From IMG/VR virus record IMGVR_UViG_3300028361_000140, positions 1-21,593 of that record: a DNA stretch of 21,593 bases; one strand, written 5' to 3'. Source of the DNA: a virus. The first letter of the stretch is position 1. Each line of letters begins with the position of its first letter. Made by a program: the position numbers and the translations under genes. The notes under the pieces were generated by a model. That model made no database searches and was not told where the DNA came from. It was given only the letters and a program-made list of their open reading frames with translations. Shown piece by piece: positions 1,784-20,109 of this stretch.

Positions 1784-2145
1784 TGGCTGAGTCAGTCGCA
1801 AGCCAAGTCGCCGCCCTAGCCGCTGTAATGACGCGGGTTGAGCGGATGATAGATGCTGACCGCACCGAACGCAAAGCCGAGAGCGAAGCGACAAACAAGG
1901 CGCTTGCCGATGATCGGGCGAAGGCCGAATTGGCGCGGTCGGCTGTGTCGGCTGAATTGAATGACATTCGGCACGGGCATGAAAACATGACGCGGCGGCT
2001 GGATAAGATCGAGCCGGTGACTGATCTAGTCACGTCCCTTTGGAGCAAGATCATCGGCGGCATTACAGCGCTGGGGGTTGTCGGGGCGGTGGTCTGGGCT
2101 GGGGTCGCGTTTTTCAGAGATATAATCTTGGAGTGGTTCCGATGA
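1783..2145 (+). CDS. Coiled-coil protein with one C-terminal membrane segment; holin-like candidate
   Basis: A 120-residue protein. Residues about 25-85 are charged and heptad-like, rich in Ala, Glu, Arg and Lys. A single hydrophobic segment follows at about 90-112 (IIGGITALGVVGAVVWAGVAF), then a short tail FRDIILEWFR. It sits directly before the endolysin and overlaps it by ATGA at 2142-2145. Small membrane proteins in this position in alphaproteobacterial phages are often lysis accessories or holins. The long N-terminal coil is unusual for a classical holin, so an anchoring or signalling role in lysis is equally possible. Confidence 0.65.
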   Translation: MAESVASQVAALAAVMTRVERMIDADRTERKAESEATNKALADDRAKAELARSAVSAELNDIRHGHENMTRRLDKIEPVTDLVTSLWSKIIGGITALGVVGAVVWAGVAFFRDIILEWFR

Positions 2146-2666
2146 AACCGCAAAGCAATATCACACACATCGTCATGCACTATTCCGCGACCTATGGCGA
2201 TCAGGACATTGGCGCGTCTGATATCGACAAGTGGCACCGCGACCGAGGTTTTGCGCAGATCGGCTATCACTGGGTTATCAGGCGCAACGGCACGGTCGAG
2301 GCGGGCAGGTCCGAGGGCACGGTGGGCGCGCATGTCCGAGGGCACAATACAGGCACCATCGGGATTTGCGTAGTTGGCGGGCTTGACCGCGCGACCGGGC
2401 CAAACCGCGGCGTTGACAATCGCACGCCGTTGCAGATTGCGGCGCAGATCAAGCTGACGCGGGAGGTGCTTTCACGTCACCCTGGCGCGCGCGTGGTAGG
2501 ACATCTTGACTTGGCGGCGACACAGTGCCCGGCGTATGATGCGGCGGCGTGGTGGGCGTCTGTGAGCGCGCCCGTTGTGGTGCAGGAGTCGGCACAAAGT
2601 GAGCGACAAAACGGACTGACGGATTTGTTGGCGTTTATCGTGGCATGGTTTAAGGGGCGCGGCTGA
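2142..2666 (+). CDS. N-acetylmuramoyl-L-alanine amidase (endolysin), T7 lysozyme / PGRP fold
   Basis: Cuts the bond between N-acetylmuramic acid and L-alanine in peptidoglycan. The 174-residue protein shows an Amidase_2 pattern: HYSAT with zinc ligand H13, GYHWVIRRNG with Y42, GAHVRGHNTGTIGIC (63-76), then GHLDLAATQCP with ligands H121 and C129. The residue two before the cysteine is Thr127, where T7 lysozyme and AmpD-like enzymes usually have Lys; catalytically active peptidoglycan recognition proteins also use Thr here, so activity is expected. No signal peptide is seen, so export would need a holin. A weakly hydrophobic tail (LLAFIVAWFKGRG) closes the protein. The start at 2142 overlaps the previous stop and fits the fold better than upstream in-frame starts. 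Confidence 0.93.
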   Translation: MKPQSNITHIVMHYSATYGDQDIGASDIDKWHRDRGFAQIGYHWVIRRNGTVEAGRSEGTVGAHVRGHNTGTIGICVVGGLDRATGPNRGVDNRTPLQIAAQIKLTREVLSRHPGARVVGHLDLAATQCPAYDAAAWWASVSAPVVVQESAQSERQNGLTDLLAFIVAWFKGRG

Positions 2667-2845
2667 TGAATTTAGGACCGGTTGCGCGCATCATCTTTCG
2701 GTACGGCATCGGCTATCTGGCGGGGTCACAGGCTGGCGAGGCGCTGGCGATGGACCCTGACGCCGTGCTGATGTTGTCACTTGCTCTGGGCGCGGCTGTA
2801 GAGGTCGTGTACGGGCTTGCCAAGCGGCGCGGGTGGGCGACATGA
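2666..2845 (+). CDS. Small membrane protein, putative holin
   Basis: A 59-residue ORF, coupled to the endolysin (TGATG-type overlap at 2664-2668) and to the next gene (ATGA at 2842-2845). Residues about 7-24 and 31-53 form two hydrophobic helices separated by a polar turn (EALAMDPD), and the tail is basic (LAKRRGWAT). This two-helix layout with a basic C-terminus fits a small class II-like holin, and its place between endolysin and spanins is the classical one. The holin function is inference from topology and context. Confidence 0.7.
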   Translation: MNLGPVARIIFRYGIGYLAGSQAGEALAMDPDAVLMLSLALGAAVEVVYGLAKRRGWAT

Positions 2846-3090
2846 GCGACCTTCTAGGCATCATCCTAGGCCCGCTGGGGGCGATCGTCGGGGCTGTTGG
2901 GCTTGCGGTCATAGCGTGGATCACAGGCCGCCAGCAGGGCGAGCGCACGGCGCATGACAAACAGGTGAGGCGGGATTATGAAAATGCTGACAAGATACGC
3001 ACCGCAGCCGACCGGGCGCGGGCTGCTGATGACGCTGGGGCTGTTGATGATGTTGAGCGGTTGCGCCGATCTGACAGGCTCCGCGACTAG
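2842..3090 (+). CDS. Inner-membrane spanin-like protein (Rz-type i-spanin)
   Basis: An 82-residue protein starting at the ATG that overlaps the previous stop. Residues about 4-27 form one N-terminal membrane segment (LLGIILGPLGAIVGAVGLAVIAW). The rest is a charged helical periplasmic part (RQQGERTAHDKQVRRDYENA and onward) ending DDVERLRRSDRLRD. An N-terminal anchor, a periplasmic coil and an out-of-frame lipoprotein gene starting inside it are the hallmarks of Rz/Rz1 pairs. An upstream GTG at 2833 is possible, but the coupled ATG is preferred. It would disrupt the outer membrane at the end of lysis together with the embedded lipoprotein. Confidence 0.8.
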   Translation: MSDLLGIILGPLGAIVGAVGLAVIAWITGRQQGERTAHDKQVRRDYENADKIRTAADRARAADDAGAVDDVERLRRSDRLRD

Positions 3091-3208
3091 CGCAACGATC
3101 TGCCGGGAACTGGCGCGCGATCTGCCAACCTATTCCAGATCCGACACGCCGGAAACGCTGGCATCCGGCGCGCGGTTCGTGGCTGTGTTTGAGGCGGTTT
3201 GCGAGTGA
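2978..3208 (+). CDS. Outer-membrane lipoprotein spanin (Rz1-type o-spanin), embedded start
   Basis: A 76-residue ORF that starts inside the i-spanin gene in a different frame and runs past its stop; the overlap is 113 bases. The N-terminus is a lipoprotein signal: basic n-region with R6 and R14, hydrophobic LLMTLGLLMML, and lipobox LSGC with C29 as the acylated residue. The mature part is about 48 residues (ICRELARDLPTYSRSDTPET onward) with a final Cys. Its 3' end overlaps a minus-strand gene (3130-3375). Overlap, lipobox and size match an o-spanin. Confidence 0.8.
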   Translation: MKMLTRYAPQPTGRGLLMTLGLLMMLSGCADLTGSATSATICRELARDLPTYSRSDTPETLASGARFVAVFEAVCE

Positions 3209-3825: not shown

Positions 3826-4014
3826 TCAAATATTCCAGAAAACGGCTGCGACACCCATCCAGAGAAAGAACCCGCCGAAAGCCACCCGCAGCCCTACCGA
3901 TTGCGCGGACACGAAAGCGTAAAGGACCGCGAATCCCAGGATGGCAATCAGAGTCAAAGGCAGCATCGCAGCAAGCGCGGCCACGCGGTATAAAGTGTGT
4001 TCGGCGTCAGTCAT
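3826..4014 (-). CDS. Small membrane protein, two predicted membrane segments
   Basis: A 62-residue protein starting MTDAEHTLYRV, with hydrophobic segments at about 11-33 (ALAAMLPLTLIAILGFAVLY) and 41-61 (LRVAFGGFFLWMGVAAVFW). Its start lies within the end of the upstream gene (4007-4207), an eight-base overlap. It is one of several small membrane proteins in this operon. Function unknown; small multi-pass proteins in accessory phage operons often act in superinfection exclusion or as extra holins/antiholins. Confidence 0.7.
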   Translation of the reverse strand: MTDAEHTLYRVAALAAMLPLTLIAILGFAVLYAFVSAQSVGLRVAFGGFFLWMGVAAVFWNI

Positions 4015-4207
4015 TTTGCGACTCCCCCTGCAAATGCCGCGACGACTGCGGCGGCGTTGTGCGCATTGGCTGCGGCGCAGCCATCACCTGCAGCGCGGCA
4101 ATGATGGCGTCGGCCAATTCCAGATCAGCAGGTCGCGGTTCGTGCCAATTATCGCAAGCGCGGTTTGATACGATCACGGCGGCGATCTTGTCCCTCAGGT
4201 CAGTCAT
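4007..4207 (-). CDS. Small soluble hypothetical protein
   Basis: Start chosen at ATG 4207, which overlaps the previous stop as ATGA and has GGAGGGG about 5 bases upstream; a further in-frame ATG at 4222 would skip this signal. It gives 66 residues beginning MTDLRDKIAAVIVSNRACDN. The central LELADAIIAALQVM looks like an amphipathic helix and the tail is polar and Pro-rich. No family assigned. The sequence pattern of a short phage accessory protein is clear, but no function is visible. Confidence 0.65.
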   Translation of the reverse strand: MTDLRDKIAAVIVSNRACDNWHEPRPADLELADAIIAALQVMAAPQPMRTTPPQSSRHLQGESQND

Positions 4208-4437
4208 TTCGTGCCCCTCCATGCGTCAACGGCGGGCTGGAAAAACACATGCCATGCGCCGAGCAAGCCGAAAGCTGCGGACAAAGTGCCAAAAGTTTCG
4301 CGCGCCGCGTCGGCATCGGTGTCTTCAATCATCATGTTCAGTAGCAGCATGGTGACCGCAAAGCCTGCCCAGAAAGCGACATTCACCAGAAAAGCCAGCA
4401 GCGCCCGACCGGCGCGGTTGAGTGTTGGATCAGTCAT
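4204..4437 (-). CDS. Small two-helix membrane protein
   Basis: A 77-residue protein, MTDPTLNRAGRALLAFLVNV onward. Hydrophobic segments lie at about 12-36 (LLAFLVNVAFWAGFAVTMLLLNMM) and 50-68 (TLSAAFGLLGAWHVFFQP), joined by an acidic linker (IEDTDADAARE). It is coupled by ATGA overlaps to the lipoprotein gene upstream (4434-4437) and to the next gene (4204-4207). The direct coupling to the ClpP-like lipoprotein gene suggests joint function at the envelope (inference). No family recognised. Confidence 0.7.
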   Translation of the reverse strand: MTDPTLNRAGRALLAFLVNVAFWAGFAVTMLLLNMMIEDTDADAARETFGTLSAAFGLLGAWHVFFQPAVDAWRGTK

Positions 4438-5003
4438 TTGCAGCCCCTATCCAATTCATTTTTAGAAAGCCAAAGAAGCTGATTGGCGCTGTCATACCAC
4501 GGGCCAGCCAAGTAAGAATCCAAGCACCCCGGCGAGTCGTATCCCTCGGGCCCGAACATCCAAGTAATCGCGGCGGCAGTGTTATGGCTGTGGACGGCAG
4601 AAAGATGCACCCCAAAAACCTTGGCGTCAGGATCGGCCACGCGGAAATTGTTCGACTGCCGGGCAAGCATCACGCCCGCGCTGATGGCGGTCCCGCCCGG
4701 CACCAATTCGACACAAAGCCCGCGCATGTTGATCTGCTGCGCGATTGCAGCGACATCTTGAGCATACCCCCACCCGCCATCAAACTGCACGCAGGCGGGC
4801 CAAATCGTGTTTTTGACCTGCTCCATCAAGGTATTCAGGCCGCGCGCCGTGGCCCGCGTCGGTATGTCGGTGGGGCGGTCGGACGGGCTGCGGCTGGGCT
4901 TTGCCAACGCGGGTTGGTCAACCCCCCGGCTTGGGGCGTCCGGGGCCGTGGCGCAGGCGCTGAGGGCTAGAGCGGCGGCAAGGGCTGTCAGGGTGCGGGT
5001 CAT
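4434..5003 (-). CDS. Lipoprotein with a ClpP/crotonase-like serine-histidine pattern
   Basis: A 189-residue protein. Residues 1-17 are a lipoprotein signal (MTRTLTALAAALALSAC, lipobox LSAC, C17), then a Pro/Ser-rich linker to about residue 55. The core has VAAIAQQINMRGLCVELVPG, then GGTAISAGVMLARQ with Ser108, then FRVADPDAKVFGVHLS with His133. This order (Gly-rich turn, Ser in SAG followed by a helix, then a short strand ending in a conserved His) resembles ClpP-fold periplasmic proteins of the COG3904 type, where Ser is the nucleophile and this His a candidate base. The fold and activity are inferred by eye from this pattern. It overlaps both neighbours by four bases. A phage-encoded envelope serine hydrolase would suit superinfection exclusion or envelope-stress control. 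Confidence 0.6.
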   Translation of the reverse strand: MTRTLTALAAALALSACATAPDAPSRGVDQPALAKPSRSPSDRPTDIPTRATARGLNTLMEQVKNTIWPACVQFDGGWGYAQDVAAIAQQINMRGLCVELVPGGTAISAGVMLARQSNNFRVADPDAKVFGVHLSAVHSHNTAAAITWMFGPEGYDSPGCLDSYLAGPWYDSANQLLWLSKNELDRGCK

Positions 5004-5377
5004 GGCCTGGCGTCCTTTAAGTCTTGGCCGATCATCGCGGCTAGGCGCACCGCGTCCTCCGCCCGGGCGCGATTCAAAAGGGTGGCGACTTCAGCGCACA
5101 TCTTTTCAGCGTCCCTTTCTGATTTGGCGGCGGCAACCTCTTGCTCTATTTCCGCCGTAAATCGCTGCAACCGCGCAGCACGGCCATGAGCCTTGAGCGT
5201 GCCAACCTCCTTGCCGTTCGACGACAAGAAGCGTCGGCCAGCGAGTGCAATGATTTGCGTTTTTGTCACTCTCTCAACTGGACCTCGTGTAAAGGCGCTG
5301 ATGCGGCTGGAACCGCTGCGGTGCACAAGGCAAACTATGTCGCCAACGGCAAGGGTGGTCAGGGTGCGGCGGGTCAT
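5000..5377 (-). CDS. Hypothetical protein with beta-barrel-like N-terminus and helical C-terminus
   Basis: A 125-residue protein. The N-terminal ~65 residues alternate strand-like segments (TLAVGDIVCLVHRSGSSR, VERVTKTQIIALAGRRFLSS), suggesting a small SH3/KOW-like barrel. The rest (about 70-125) is a charged Ala/Glu/Arg helix. It is coupled by ATGA to the upstream 41-residue gene and to the lipoprotein gene. Proteins with a VGD...V...R...V.RVTKT core occur as unnamed genes in many phages. Nucleic-acid binding is a possible role, not shown. Confidence 0.65.
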   Translation of the reverse strand: MTRRTLTTLAVGDIVCLVHRSGSSRISAFTRGPVERVTKTQIIALAGRRFLSSNGKEVGTLKAHGRAARLQRFTAEIEQEVAAAKSERDAEKMCAEVATLLNRARAEDAVRLAAMIGQDLKDARP

Positions 5378-5499: not shown

Positions 5500-5690
5500 C
5501 TCACATACTCCATCGCGTCTAGTTTGAATTGCTGATAGGCTTTCGGCCCAACGTGCGCCGCCATCACTCCAAGCGCAAAGGCGGCGGCAAGCATGGCGTA
5601 TCGGCGCAGTCCCCATGTGCGCGGCGGCGGCTTGCGGACAATGCCGCGCGCTAGGGTGTCGTCGGTCTGGTGCATGTCGGGGCGGATCAT
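5496..5690 (-). CDS. Small single-pass membrane protein
   Basis: A 64-residue protein. The N-terminal ~28 residues are basic (ARGIVRKPPPRTWGLRR), followed by one membrane segment at about 30-48 (YAMLAAAFALGVMAAHVGP) and a short tail AYQQFKLDAMEYVR. By the positive-inside rule the N-terminus should be cytoplasmic. Coupled by ATGA to both neighbours. No known family. Confidence 0.65.
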   Translation of the reverse strand: MIRPDMHQTDDTLARGIVRKPPPRTWGLRRYAMLAAAFALGVMAAHVGPKAYQQFKLDAMEYVR

Positions 5691-5923
5691 TGGTCATTCT
5701 CCCATGCGGCATCTCGCCGCCGTTCGTATTCGTAGTCACCATCTGGCTCGTCCTGGGCGGCTTTGATCACACCATCACCAGAGCAGCGCCCGCATCTGGT
5801 CACGGTGTTTTCCCGCTCCAAGCAGCCATCGCCGTCGCAGGCGGGGCATGTCCCTTTCTTAGGGTCGTCATCTTCGTCAGGGCCGCTCAGTCGCCATGCG
5901 TCGTAGTCTCGGGGCAGGATCAT
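5687..5923 (-). CDS. Small protein with two CxxCxGxG zinc motifs (DnaJ-type)
   Basis: A 78-residue protein. CPACDGDG (C26, C29) and CGRCSGDG (C44, C47) are two CxxCxGxG motifs of the DnaJ central zinc-finger type, spaced so they can form a single zinc site. The flanks are acidic (SGPDEDDDPKKG; EPDGDYEYERRRDAAWENDQ). There is no J domain, so this is a stand-alone finger. Such fingers bind unfolded protein or nucleic acid and are common in small phage proteins; the partner here is unknown. Coupled to both neighbours by four-base overlaps. Confidence 0.75.
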   Translation of the reverse strand: MILPRDYDAWRLSGPDEDDDPKKGTCPACDGDGCLERENTVTRCGRCSGDGVIKAAQDEPDGDYEYERRRDAAWENDQ

Positions 5924-7287: not shown

Positions 7288-7476
7288 ATGGAAAAATTGA
7301 ACACATACCTGCGGGAAAGCGGCACCACGAAGTTAGCTTTGGCGGCGGCTGTCGGCATTGCGAAAAGCACTATGACCGAGCTGTCACAAGGCAAATATCC
7401 GCCGTCGCTGGCGGTCGCGCTTGCCATCGAGGACGCTACGGGCGGCGCGGTTCCGGCCAGAGGGTGGGGCGCGTGA
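7288..7476 (+). CDS. Small Cro/XRE-type helix-turn-helix repressor
   Basis: A 62-residue DNA-binding protein: MEKLNTYLRESGTTKLALAA, then helix-turn-helix residues about 15-40 (ALAAAVGIAKSTMTELSQGK) and a third helix (SLAVALAIEDATGG). The layout matches Cro/YdaS-type proteins in which a short helical domain alone binds DNA as a dimer. It is divergent from the accessory operon and flanked by two identical-arm operators, so it most likely represses both that operon and itself. The frame is open far upstream, but that extension crosses the operators and is not coding. No full CI-type repressor with a dimerisation domain is visible in the window. Confidence 0.85.
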   Translation: MEKLNTYLRESGTTKLALAAAVGIAKSTMTELSQGKYPPSLAVALAIEDATGGAVPARGWGA

Positions 7477-16771: not shown

Positions 16772-17298
16772 GGCTTGACTCCCGCCAGCCGCAAAAGGCT
16801 GCCTCGCGACCAATAAACCATTCCGTGCCTGCCCCAATTTGCGTGTCTGTGGCTTTCAGTTTTTGCTAGCACGGAAATGTCATTGCCGAACAATCCCGCC
16901 GGACATTCAGGTGGGCATCCGTGCGCAATATCGCCAGAATCAGGCTTGTCGCTAGGGTGCAGAAAAACAAGCCAAACCGGAAATTCTGTTCTAGCGGCGA
17001 CTTCTTTGTATTGCCCGTAATGGTGGAGGTCGATTCCAGTCACCCACTGCCGGGAGATTCTATGCCATGTAAAGCAGCTTTTGCGCTTTACCTCAAACCA
17101 GATCGCCTTGCCATCACGAATCGCCAGCAAATCAGGCAAGACAAGATCGCCGGATTTTGCAAAAAGCTGCGGCCCCTTGTATTCGCCCCCCTCCTTTTCG
17201 TAGGCAGGGAAAACCATATGCCCGCGCCCTTGCAGCCATTCTGAAACGGTTTGCTCACCTTGCTGCCCGAAAGCCAATGCCGCTTGAAAATCACCCAT
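16768..17298 (-). CDS. PD-(D/E)xK-like nuclease
   Basis: A 176-residue protein started at ATG 17298 (MGDFQAALAFGQQGEQTVSE), overlapping the methyltransferase stop by 8 bases. The E-x(n)-D-x(n)-ExK pattern is E16 in GEQTVSEWL, then GDLVLPDLLAIRDGKAIWFEVKRKS with D and E-x-K. This resembles Holliday junction resolvase Hjc-type and restriction-like nuclease folds. The remaining part (HHYGQYKEVAARTEFPVWLV) contains the usual Q/Y helix after the active site. Active-site assignment is by eye. Its position between methyltransferase and primase suggests branched-DNA processing in replication. Confidence 0.75.
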   Translation of the reverse strand: MGDFQAALAFGQQGEQTVSEWLQGRGHMVFPAYEKEGGEYKGPQLFAKSGDLVLPDLLAIRDGKAIWFEVKRKSCFTWHRISRQWVTGIDLHHYGQYKEVAARTEFPVWLVFLHPSDKPDSGDIAHGCPPECPAGLFGNDISVLAKTESHRHANWGRHGMVYWSRGSLLRLAGVKP

Positions 17299-18538
17299 GC
17301 TTGACCACCAGGCCAAAGCTAGCAAACGCCTCTTGGAAGCGATCCACATTTGGGCCGGAATATATAATGGCCTGCCCCTGTAGCGGTGCGCCACTTGCGT
17401 TGCCTTGCGGGTCCAGAAATTTTATGCGCGCCTTGGGAAAGCAAATGGCAGAACACTCAGCGGCAATGATCTGGAACCACGCTGTTTCTGTGGCATTATT
17501 TACCAGCACAATAACGTGCGATCCGTCCCGCGCCGCTTGGGCAAGGCGCGCTGCAAACTGTCCCATAAGAGGCTGTGAATACGGAGGGTTGCACCATATC
17601 GACCCAACAGGCCAATCCCGCGACAACCCGTCATCCTGCGCAGTAAATATCCGGTCGGCCCGCACCGTCCGGTTTGCAACCTCACTGGACGCCGGGTCCA
17701 AGTCGAACCCGCCCAGCACGGCCCGTGCCGCTTCGATGTAGATTGCCGGTGTATACCATTCGTTTTCGCCGCTGTTGTGCGACACATGGGCGGTCTTGTC
17801 CGAACCTTTATCGCCAGCCTTTGCCTTTGCGGCCTTCTTGTCTGCGGCCTTGGCGCTGTTGTCTGCTGTTTTCGCGGCCTTGTCGGATGCCTTGGCAAGG
17901 CGCTCTGACGCCTTCGCCCTGTCATCCTCGGCCTTTGCGCTGGCCTCTGCTTCCGCCCTTGCCTGCGCTGCGGCCTGTGCTTGTTCTTGGGCAACCCGGC
18001 GCTGTTCTGCATCCTTTGCGCGCTTCACGGCGGCAATGGCTGCGGACTCTGCATCGGCGCGTAACTTGGCTTCCCGCCGGTCAGCCTCGCCCTTGCGCCG
18101 CGCTTCGTCTGCAATCTTGCGCTCCGCTTCGGCATTGGCGCGGGCAAGGGCGGCGCGTTCACGATCCTCTGCGGCTTTGCGCCCCGCGTCCAAGATTAGC
18201 CACTTGGCATGTATGCCGCGAACGGTGCGGGCATTACCAGCAACGCGCGCCGCGTCAAAGTCGTTAAGGTTGGCGGCTGCCCACATAGCCGCAGATTGAT
18301 CATCCGGTGCAATCGCAACTTGCGAAAGCACATTTTCCGCTATCCATCGACCAAACTCTCGGTCGCCAGGGAACAACCCGCGCCCCTCATTCAGCGCCGC
18401 GCCGTATGCAAGCCACCCCTCGATGGTGTCCGTTTCGCCGGATGCGACACGCTCAAGCGCAGCGCGTGCCGCATCGGCAAGCCATGCCAGCCGCACGGGG
18501 CTTTCATTATGTCCAAATATTGTGCTATCGTCAGTCAT
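17291..18538 (-). CDS. Dam-type adenine methyltransferase fused to a DUF3102-like domain by a coiled coil
   Basis: Start at ATG 18538 with AAAGGAAC upstream; 415 residues. Residues 1-115 are an N-terminal helical domain (LAYGAALNEGRGLFPGDREF, AENVLSQVAIAPDD) reminiscent of DUF3102-type proteins. Residues 119-249 are an Ala/Lys/Glu/Arg-rich coiled coil. Residues 255-415 match the phage Dam family: NEWYTPAIYIEAARAVLGGF, DLDPASS, QDDGLSRDWP, NPPYS (317-321) and VLVNNATETAWF, then IKFLDPQGNA. It transfers a methyl group from S-adenosylmethionine to adenine N6. Target not visible; GATC is the family's usual site. First gene of the leftward replication operon. Confidence 0.88.
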   Translation of the reverse strand: MTDDSTIFGHNESPVRLAWLADAARAALERVASGETDTIEGWLAYGAALNEGRGLFPGDREFGRWIAENVLSQVAIAPDDQSAAMWAAANLNDFDAARVAGNARTVRGIHAKWLILDAGRKAAEDRERAALARANAEAERKIADEARRKGEADRREAKLRADAESAAIAAVKRAKDAEQRRVAQEQAQAAAQARAEAEASAKAEDDRAKASERLAKASDKAAKTADNSAKAADKKAAKAKAGDKGSDKTAHVSHNSGENEWYTPAIYIEAARAVLGGFDLDPASSEVANRTVRADRIFTAQDDGLSRDWPVGSIWCNPPYSQPLMGQFAARLAQAARDGSHVIVLVNNATETAWFQIIAAECSAICFPKARIKFLDPQGNASGAPLQGQAIIYSGPNVDRFQEAFASFGLVVKHG

Positions 18539-18624
18539 TGGCGAGTTCCTTTCGCTGATATGGCCGAGATCGAGCGTGTGGCGCGCTCTCTCGGCCCCCC
18601 TACCTAGCCAGCAAATTCCCCCAT

Positions 18625-19340: not shown

Positions 19341-19591
19341 TGACCTACTACATCAGCATGACCCCCGCAGCCTTCAAAGCCGCCCGCCTATCCCTCGGCC
19401 TGACAGCCGCGCAAGCCGCGCCGCTGTTCGGCCTTGGCGATCCGGCGCGCATCTACAACATCGAGGGCGGGGCGACCGTGCCAGGATGGCACGCCCGCCT
19501 GATGCGGGCGTACCTTTCCGGATACCGGCCCGATGACTGGCCACCACACGCCGCGCCCATCGCGGCCAAGCAAGGGGACACCAAGCCATGA
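19340..19591 (+). CDS. Small helix-turn-helix regulator
   Basis: An 83-residue protein: MTYYISMTPAAFKAARLSLG, then LTAAQAAPLFGLGDPARIYN, IEGGATVPGWHARLMRAYLS. Residues about 8-45 have the XRE/Cro helix-turn-helix layout (FKAARLSLGLTAAQAAPLFGL...RIYNIEGG), with the recognition helix near DPARIYNIE. It is coupled to genes on both sides (TGATG at 19338-19342, ATGA at 19588-19591). The C-terminal tail is Pro-rich. A transcriptional regulator of the early or late switch is the likely role; its target is not shown. Confidence 0.75.
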   Translation: MTYYISMTPAAFKAARLSLGLTAAQAAPLFGLGDPARIYNIEGGATVPGWHARLMRAYLSGYRPDDWPPHAAPIAAKQGDTKP

Positions 19592-20109
19592 CCCACCCAT
19601 ACTTCCAAGCCCACGCGCCCCTCGCAACCAAATACGAGTGGCAGATAGCCCGCGAGTTTCGCACGCATCGGATGCGAGAGGTCAAAGCGTCCGGACCAAG
19701 CCCACAAGGCGCAGGCGGGCCCGCATCTGACAAATCCCCCGTGCTGGCGCTATTCCTGCCCGGTGTGAGGCTATCGATCGCAGACGTTGCCAAGGCGATG
19801 GCATTGCCGCGCCATGCCGCGCGCGATGCCCTGAGCATACTCAGCCGCGACGGCGCAATCTACGTCTGCGCCAAGGGGGGCTACGGCGCGAACATCTACG
19901 CCGCGCCGGATCACAGGAGCGACGATGCGAAAATCCTTCACGTTTTGCGTGACGGCAGGGAGCGGCTGGCCAATGAGATTGCACCGCTTGTAGGTAAGAC
20001 CCCGGGTGAGGTGTCAAAGGCTATGGTGCCTCTAGTAGCGTCGAGGAGGGTTATCTTTAGACGCATGCCGGGTACATGGGCCAATATTCACGGGTATCGG
20101 TTAGCCTGA
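19588..20109 (+). CDS. Winged-helix DNA-binding protein
   Basis: A 173-residue protein. Two winged-helix-like units are seen: LSIADVAKAMALPRHAARDA with SILSRDGAIYVCAKGGYGAN (about 60-100), and ILHVLRDGRERLANEIAPLV with GKTPGEVSKAMVPLVASRRV (about 115-155). The N-terminal ~50 residues are basic (IAREFRTHRMREVKASG). It is probably a regulator or a replication-initiation protein. Being the last gene before the terminase region, a role as activator of late transcription is plausible but inferred. Its TGA lies inside the stem of the structured element that follows. Confidence 0.7.
   Translation: MTHPYFQAHAPLATKYEWQIAREFRTHRMREVKASGPSPQGAGGPASDKSPVLALFLPGVRLSIADVAKAMALPRHAARDALSILSRDGAIYVCAKGGYGANIYAAPDHRSDDAKILHVLRDGRERLANEIAPLVGKTPGEVSKAMVPLVASRRVIFRRMPGTWANIHGYRLA

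Follow-up and report, generated by a model that had tools for sequence, protein, structure and literature searches.

The closest described counterparts of the protein considered here are proteins with a ClpP-like domain. The ClpP peptidase (PF00574) is cytoplasmic and has an ATPase partner, and in E. coli ClpP the catalytic Ser and His are spaced by 25 residues. In secreted alphaproteobacterial proteins of the COG3904 type, a strand-helix-strand unit leads to a Ser block and then a His; the Ser and the His are invariant, and a C-terminal block comes after them. COG3904-type proteins were also found in five phages (L181-L185), namely the Agrobacterium phages Atu_ph08 and Atu_ph07, Vibrio phage 2.275.O, Sinorhizobium phage Phosso and Xanthomonas phage XaC1, and four of the five carry a hydrophobic export or membrane segment at the N-terminus. 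Four of these phage records exceed 340 kb, and the Vibrio and XaC1 genes are near genes of NAD metabolism. The Atu_ph08 protein has close relatives in IMG/VR; a scan with the COG3904-type proteins of Rhodobacteraceae gave no viral relatives. The initial annotation of the locus knew of no described phage system of this form. This has to be narrowed because phages do encode recognisable COG3904-type proteins; what stands is that no paper assigning a function to one of them was found in those parts of the literature that our search reached. Phage lipoproteins as such do have a precedent, as Ltp of TP-J34 is used for exclusion (PMC3952083).

The window, that is the whole stretch of DNA analysed, is 21,593 bases long and stands in IMG/VR as a virus record; its genes for a small terminase, a primase, YqaJ, an amidase and spanins bear out the phage origin proposed for it. 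The primase shows 49% identity to that of Microcystis phage Mwe-JY13 and 58% identity to a primase in a Cypionkella metagenome-assembled genome; from these identities a host within the Rhodobacteraceae, an alphaproteobacterial family, is probable. Elsewhere in the window, the gene at 17291-18544 (minus strand) encodes a DNA methyltransferase domain (PHROG 111, E 7e-37) after a long alanine-rich, charged N-terminal part, and the gene at 19588-20109 (plus strand), upstream of the small terminase gene, gives a weak match to a Ren-like exclusion protein (PHROG 142, E 9e-5).

The lipoprotein gene lies at 4434..5003 on the minus strand and encodes 189 amino acids from an ATG start with a good ribosome-binding site, AAAGGA, upstream. 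Its frame has the best codon usage of the six (0.184 bits per codon), against 0.007 for the overlapping plus-strand ORF at 4422-4970. The N-terminal signal MTRTLTALAAALALSAC has a basic n-region, a hydrophobic stretch and a lipobox ending in Cys, the pattern by which bacterial lipoproteins are recognised. The signal peptide spans residues 1-16. The lipobox (L14-S15-A16-C17, with Cys17 the lipidated residue) and a linker rich in P, S, R and D (residues 18-55) are as first described, the disordered stretch reaching to about residue 55. An Ala at position +2 of the lipidated Cys points to outer-membrane sorting by the Lol system, and the Ala18 found here suggests that the lipoprotein would be sorted in this way. 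The core follows from about residue 56 to 189, and the segment taken as the core domain (P0001, residues 55-189; 4437..4841, minus strand) aligns in part with the COG3904/ClpP-like profile. Both core motifs, GGTAISAG with Ser108 and AKVFGVHLS with His133, were found exactly as the initial annotation had them. The stretch between these residues, SAGVMLARQSNNFRVADPDAKVFGVH, is encoded at 4605..4682 (minus strand); profile alignments would make them the putative nucleophile and base, and their spacing of 25 residues is that of ClpP. Among 3,316 background ORFs, 10 contain G-x-A-x-S-[AM]-[GA]; in one of these G-x-H also follows 18-24 residues further on, and the locus of that ORF had been retrieved by a DNA version of the motif.

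The gene sits within a dense leftward operon, made up of small ORFs and located downstream of the replication genes. It overlaps by 4 nt the upstream gene at 5000..5377 (minus strand, 125 aa), which weakly matches PHROGs 8619 and 9662, both of unknown function, and likewise the downstream gene for a 77-aa membrane protein at 4204..4437 (minus strand), which has no family match. Two more small overlapping ORFs, of 71 aa and of 62 aa with two transmembrane segments, follow in the same operon at 3826..4222 (minus strand). The coupling to a two-helix membrane protein noted earlier is thus real as an ATGA stop-start overlap with 4204-4437, but it is not special. At least seven of the junctions between 6631 and 3826 show a 4-nt ATGA overlap, so this one is ordinary operon packing, and a special functional link between the two proteins was set aside. 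As for the two helices of the 77-aa protein, one transmembrane segment is clear, from residue 15, and the second is weaker. At 5687-5923 (minus strand), a 78-aa protein carries CxxCxGxG repeats of the DnaJ type (Pfam E 6.6e-5, short of the curated cut-off), and a small cysteine-rich protein of Mwe-JY13 (L002, 22495-22686) resembles it. Running opposite to the operon, 7288-7476 (plus strand) encodes a 62-aa protein weakly like phage transcriptional repressors (PHROG 2328, E 1.8e-5).

A short lipoprotein encoded close to lysis genes might serve in lysis, perhaps as an outer-membrane spanin. A set of lysis genes is, however, already present on the other strand at 2145-3208. It comprises an amidase (2145-2666), a small membrane protein (2666-2845), an i-spanin after the amidase gene (ending at 3090) and, overlapping the i-spanin out of frame, an o-spanin candidate with the lipobox LSGC (2978-3208), all on the plus strand. 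Given this separate spanin pair at 2842-3208, and the position of the lipoprotein gene in the leftward operon rather than among these genes, a lysis role appears highly improbable and a spanin role was set aside.

Relatives of the lipoprotein were sought widely. None was found by tblastn in phages and plasmids, by peptide-pattern scans of IMG/VR viral contigs and genome contigs, or in about 780 alphaproteobacterial genomes, 394 from the family and 385 from the class. A degenerate DNA version of the motif gave ten matches, which on inspection looked like chance. The weak matches in the 394 family genomes also looked like chance on realignment, the best having only a GPDGMQSPAGHRD-like stretch in common. 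The pattern scans required about eight consecutive matching residues, so distant relatives may escape them. Sequence searches of Pfam, PHROGs, NCBIfam, PADLOC and the PDB gave nothing useful. The lipoprotein is an orphan within the phages, plasmids, IMG/VR scans and about 780 alphaproteobacterial genomes searched. No match to it was seen in the related phages Mwe-JY13 (L002), L005 and L006, which retain the primase and helicase; the L002 record is complete, L005 and L006 are fragments, and L003, L004 and L007 break off too soon to be informative. Absence from related phages is usual for accessory genes and is in line with an accessory status for this one.

The likeness of the core to the COG3904 type, a family named in advance, was examined with profiles. 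The reference set was gathered from genomes within the family and class of Cypionkella, seeded by weak PF00574 matches, and comprised L137-L139, L141, L146 and L151-L167, with a second, weaker-scoring ClpP-like group, L168-L180; the label "COG3904-type" for these proteins is a reading of their sequence pattern and not the result of a COG search. Profiles were run unfiltered against 3,317 ORFs of at least 110 aa, a background in which shadow ORFs make top rank easier to reach, and against 5,000 shuffles of the query. Five profiles were tried, and the single-test values given here stand uncorrected for that number. With the COG3904-type profile the query and its full ORF came out on top of the approximately 3,300 ORFs, and the query outscored every one of the 5,000 shuffles (single-test E 3e-5). 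Both were also on top with a combined profile of the COG3904-type proteins and the second group (single-test E 6e-6) and with a trimmed central block including the five phage proteins (single-test E 2e-4). Adding the phage proteins untrimmed moved the query to second place with a score reduced to 5.4 bits, and no signal came from a profile of L168-L180, the second group, alone, the query ranking 88. Alignment of the query with the family by hhalign gave P 6e-4. Across the family profiles the scores were modest, 5-12 bits with database E values of 0.02-2.3, compared with 34-127 bits for the five phage COG3904-type proteins. The COG3904/ClpP-like reading of the initial annotation therefore came through the profile test at modest significance, but not with every profile, the second group being without signal.

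In these alignments the region from about residue 72 to His133 lies opposite the family's strand-helix-strand unit, its Ser block and its His, and the invariant Ser and His of the family coincide with Ser108 and His133 respectively; in a MAFFT alignment with four viral members the Ser was displaced by one. Near the C-terminus, a 14-residue block, DSANQLLWLSKNEL (residues 171-184; 4452..4493, minus strand), resembles the family block TPPEEIYVLSEEEL. This likeness gave p 0.09 for nine members picked out by a regular expression, and p 0.002 against tail shuffles with nineteen members, a value to be discounted as its register was set by eye after the query had been seen. Two family motifs are absent. 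The SPGG (or xxGG) of the oxyanion strand is replaced by GGWG, with WG opposite GG, and the C-x-S-x-C around the Ser by A-I-S-A-G, the family cysteines being lost. In addition, the similarity is below the reach of BLAST, and the lipoprotein differs from the secreted proteins in its lipidation and long linker. Given the two missing motifs it was not filed as a member of COG3904, though it may function like one. The same replacements, together with a third catalytic residue that is not assignable (by eye, no Asp falls where that of ClpP would, and other acidic residues are possible), would fit a ClpP-fold pseudoenzyme, a lipoprotein that binds or acts as a scaffold and has no enzymatic activity. 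Both Ser and His are nevertheless retained, at the expected places and spacing, and we regard a pseudoenzyme as somewhat unlikely. The likelihood that the core is a working hydrolase is judged to be similarly low.

Structure prediction gave little guidance. AlphaFold2 on the core alone produced a beta-alpha-beta start with a mean pLDDT of 43.6, and a Foldseek search of this model against the PDB gave no significant match. With four distant viral fragments added the pLDDT fell to 37.3; the alignment behind this second run was sparse and misplaced the Ser by one position, so its failure is hardly informative. Neither model, both having pLDDT below 45, shows the helix that should follow the nucleophile. 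These unconfident models, the modest scores of 5 to 12 bits, the lack of a family match in four libraries and the lack of relatives in the phage, plasmid, IMG/VR and alphaproteobacterial genome searches are what one would expect of an orphan phage lipoprotein with another or a new fold, its ClpP likeness a chance run of Gly, Ala and Ser, acting by binding as small exclusion lipoproteins do. Against this, the family had been named beforehand, the query ranked first when set against some 3,300 ORFs and 5,000 shuffles, and a second block is found at its expected C-terminal place. A different fold is thus a real possibility but falls well short of an even chance, and a ClpP fold for the core is somewhat more likely than not from the profile evidence.

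The best explanation, which we put at about an even chance, is that the gene encodes an accessory lipoprotein of the envelope whose core is ClpP-like but diverged, and which may act on a component of the envelope. It would be exported and then lipidated at Cys17, for which the signature is present, and sorted to the outer membrane as the Ala at +2 suggests, with the flexible linker holding the core in the periplasm. The core would be a strongly diverged ClpP-fold domain as in the secreted COG3904-type proteins, with Ser108 in the place of the nucleophile and His133 in that of the base, and during infection would target some component of the envelope, either by hydrolysis or by binding alone. 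One outcome might be that a second phage is kept out; like Ltp of TP-J34 (PMC3952083), to which it is likened by description, the protein is a phage-encoded, membrane-anchored lipoprotein, though the host of Ltp is Gram-positive. Superinfection exclusion as its actual role is nonetheless considered unlikely. The other roles suggested in the initial annotation, a block of envelope stress signalling and lysis timing, are likewise conjectural. Its resemblance to the phage COG3904-type proteins lies in a phage-encoded ClpP-like domain; the layout of lipobox and linker is found in none of the five. With ClpP itself it shares the Ser-His spacing; it has no Pfam match. A bolder version, in which a phage-made, outer-membrane-tethered ClpP-fold serine hydrolase cuts a host envelope protein or lipid and founds a diverged, lipidated branch of the COG3904 type, is likewise improbable.

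COG3904-type proteins are common in the alphaproteobacterial genomes searched and almost absent from the literature searched, in which a single paper mentions the name. Their presence in phages, together with a lipidated relative there, would point to an envelope role in the conflict between phage and host, and the phage members would offer small, testable proteins from which the function of the family could be learned.
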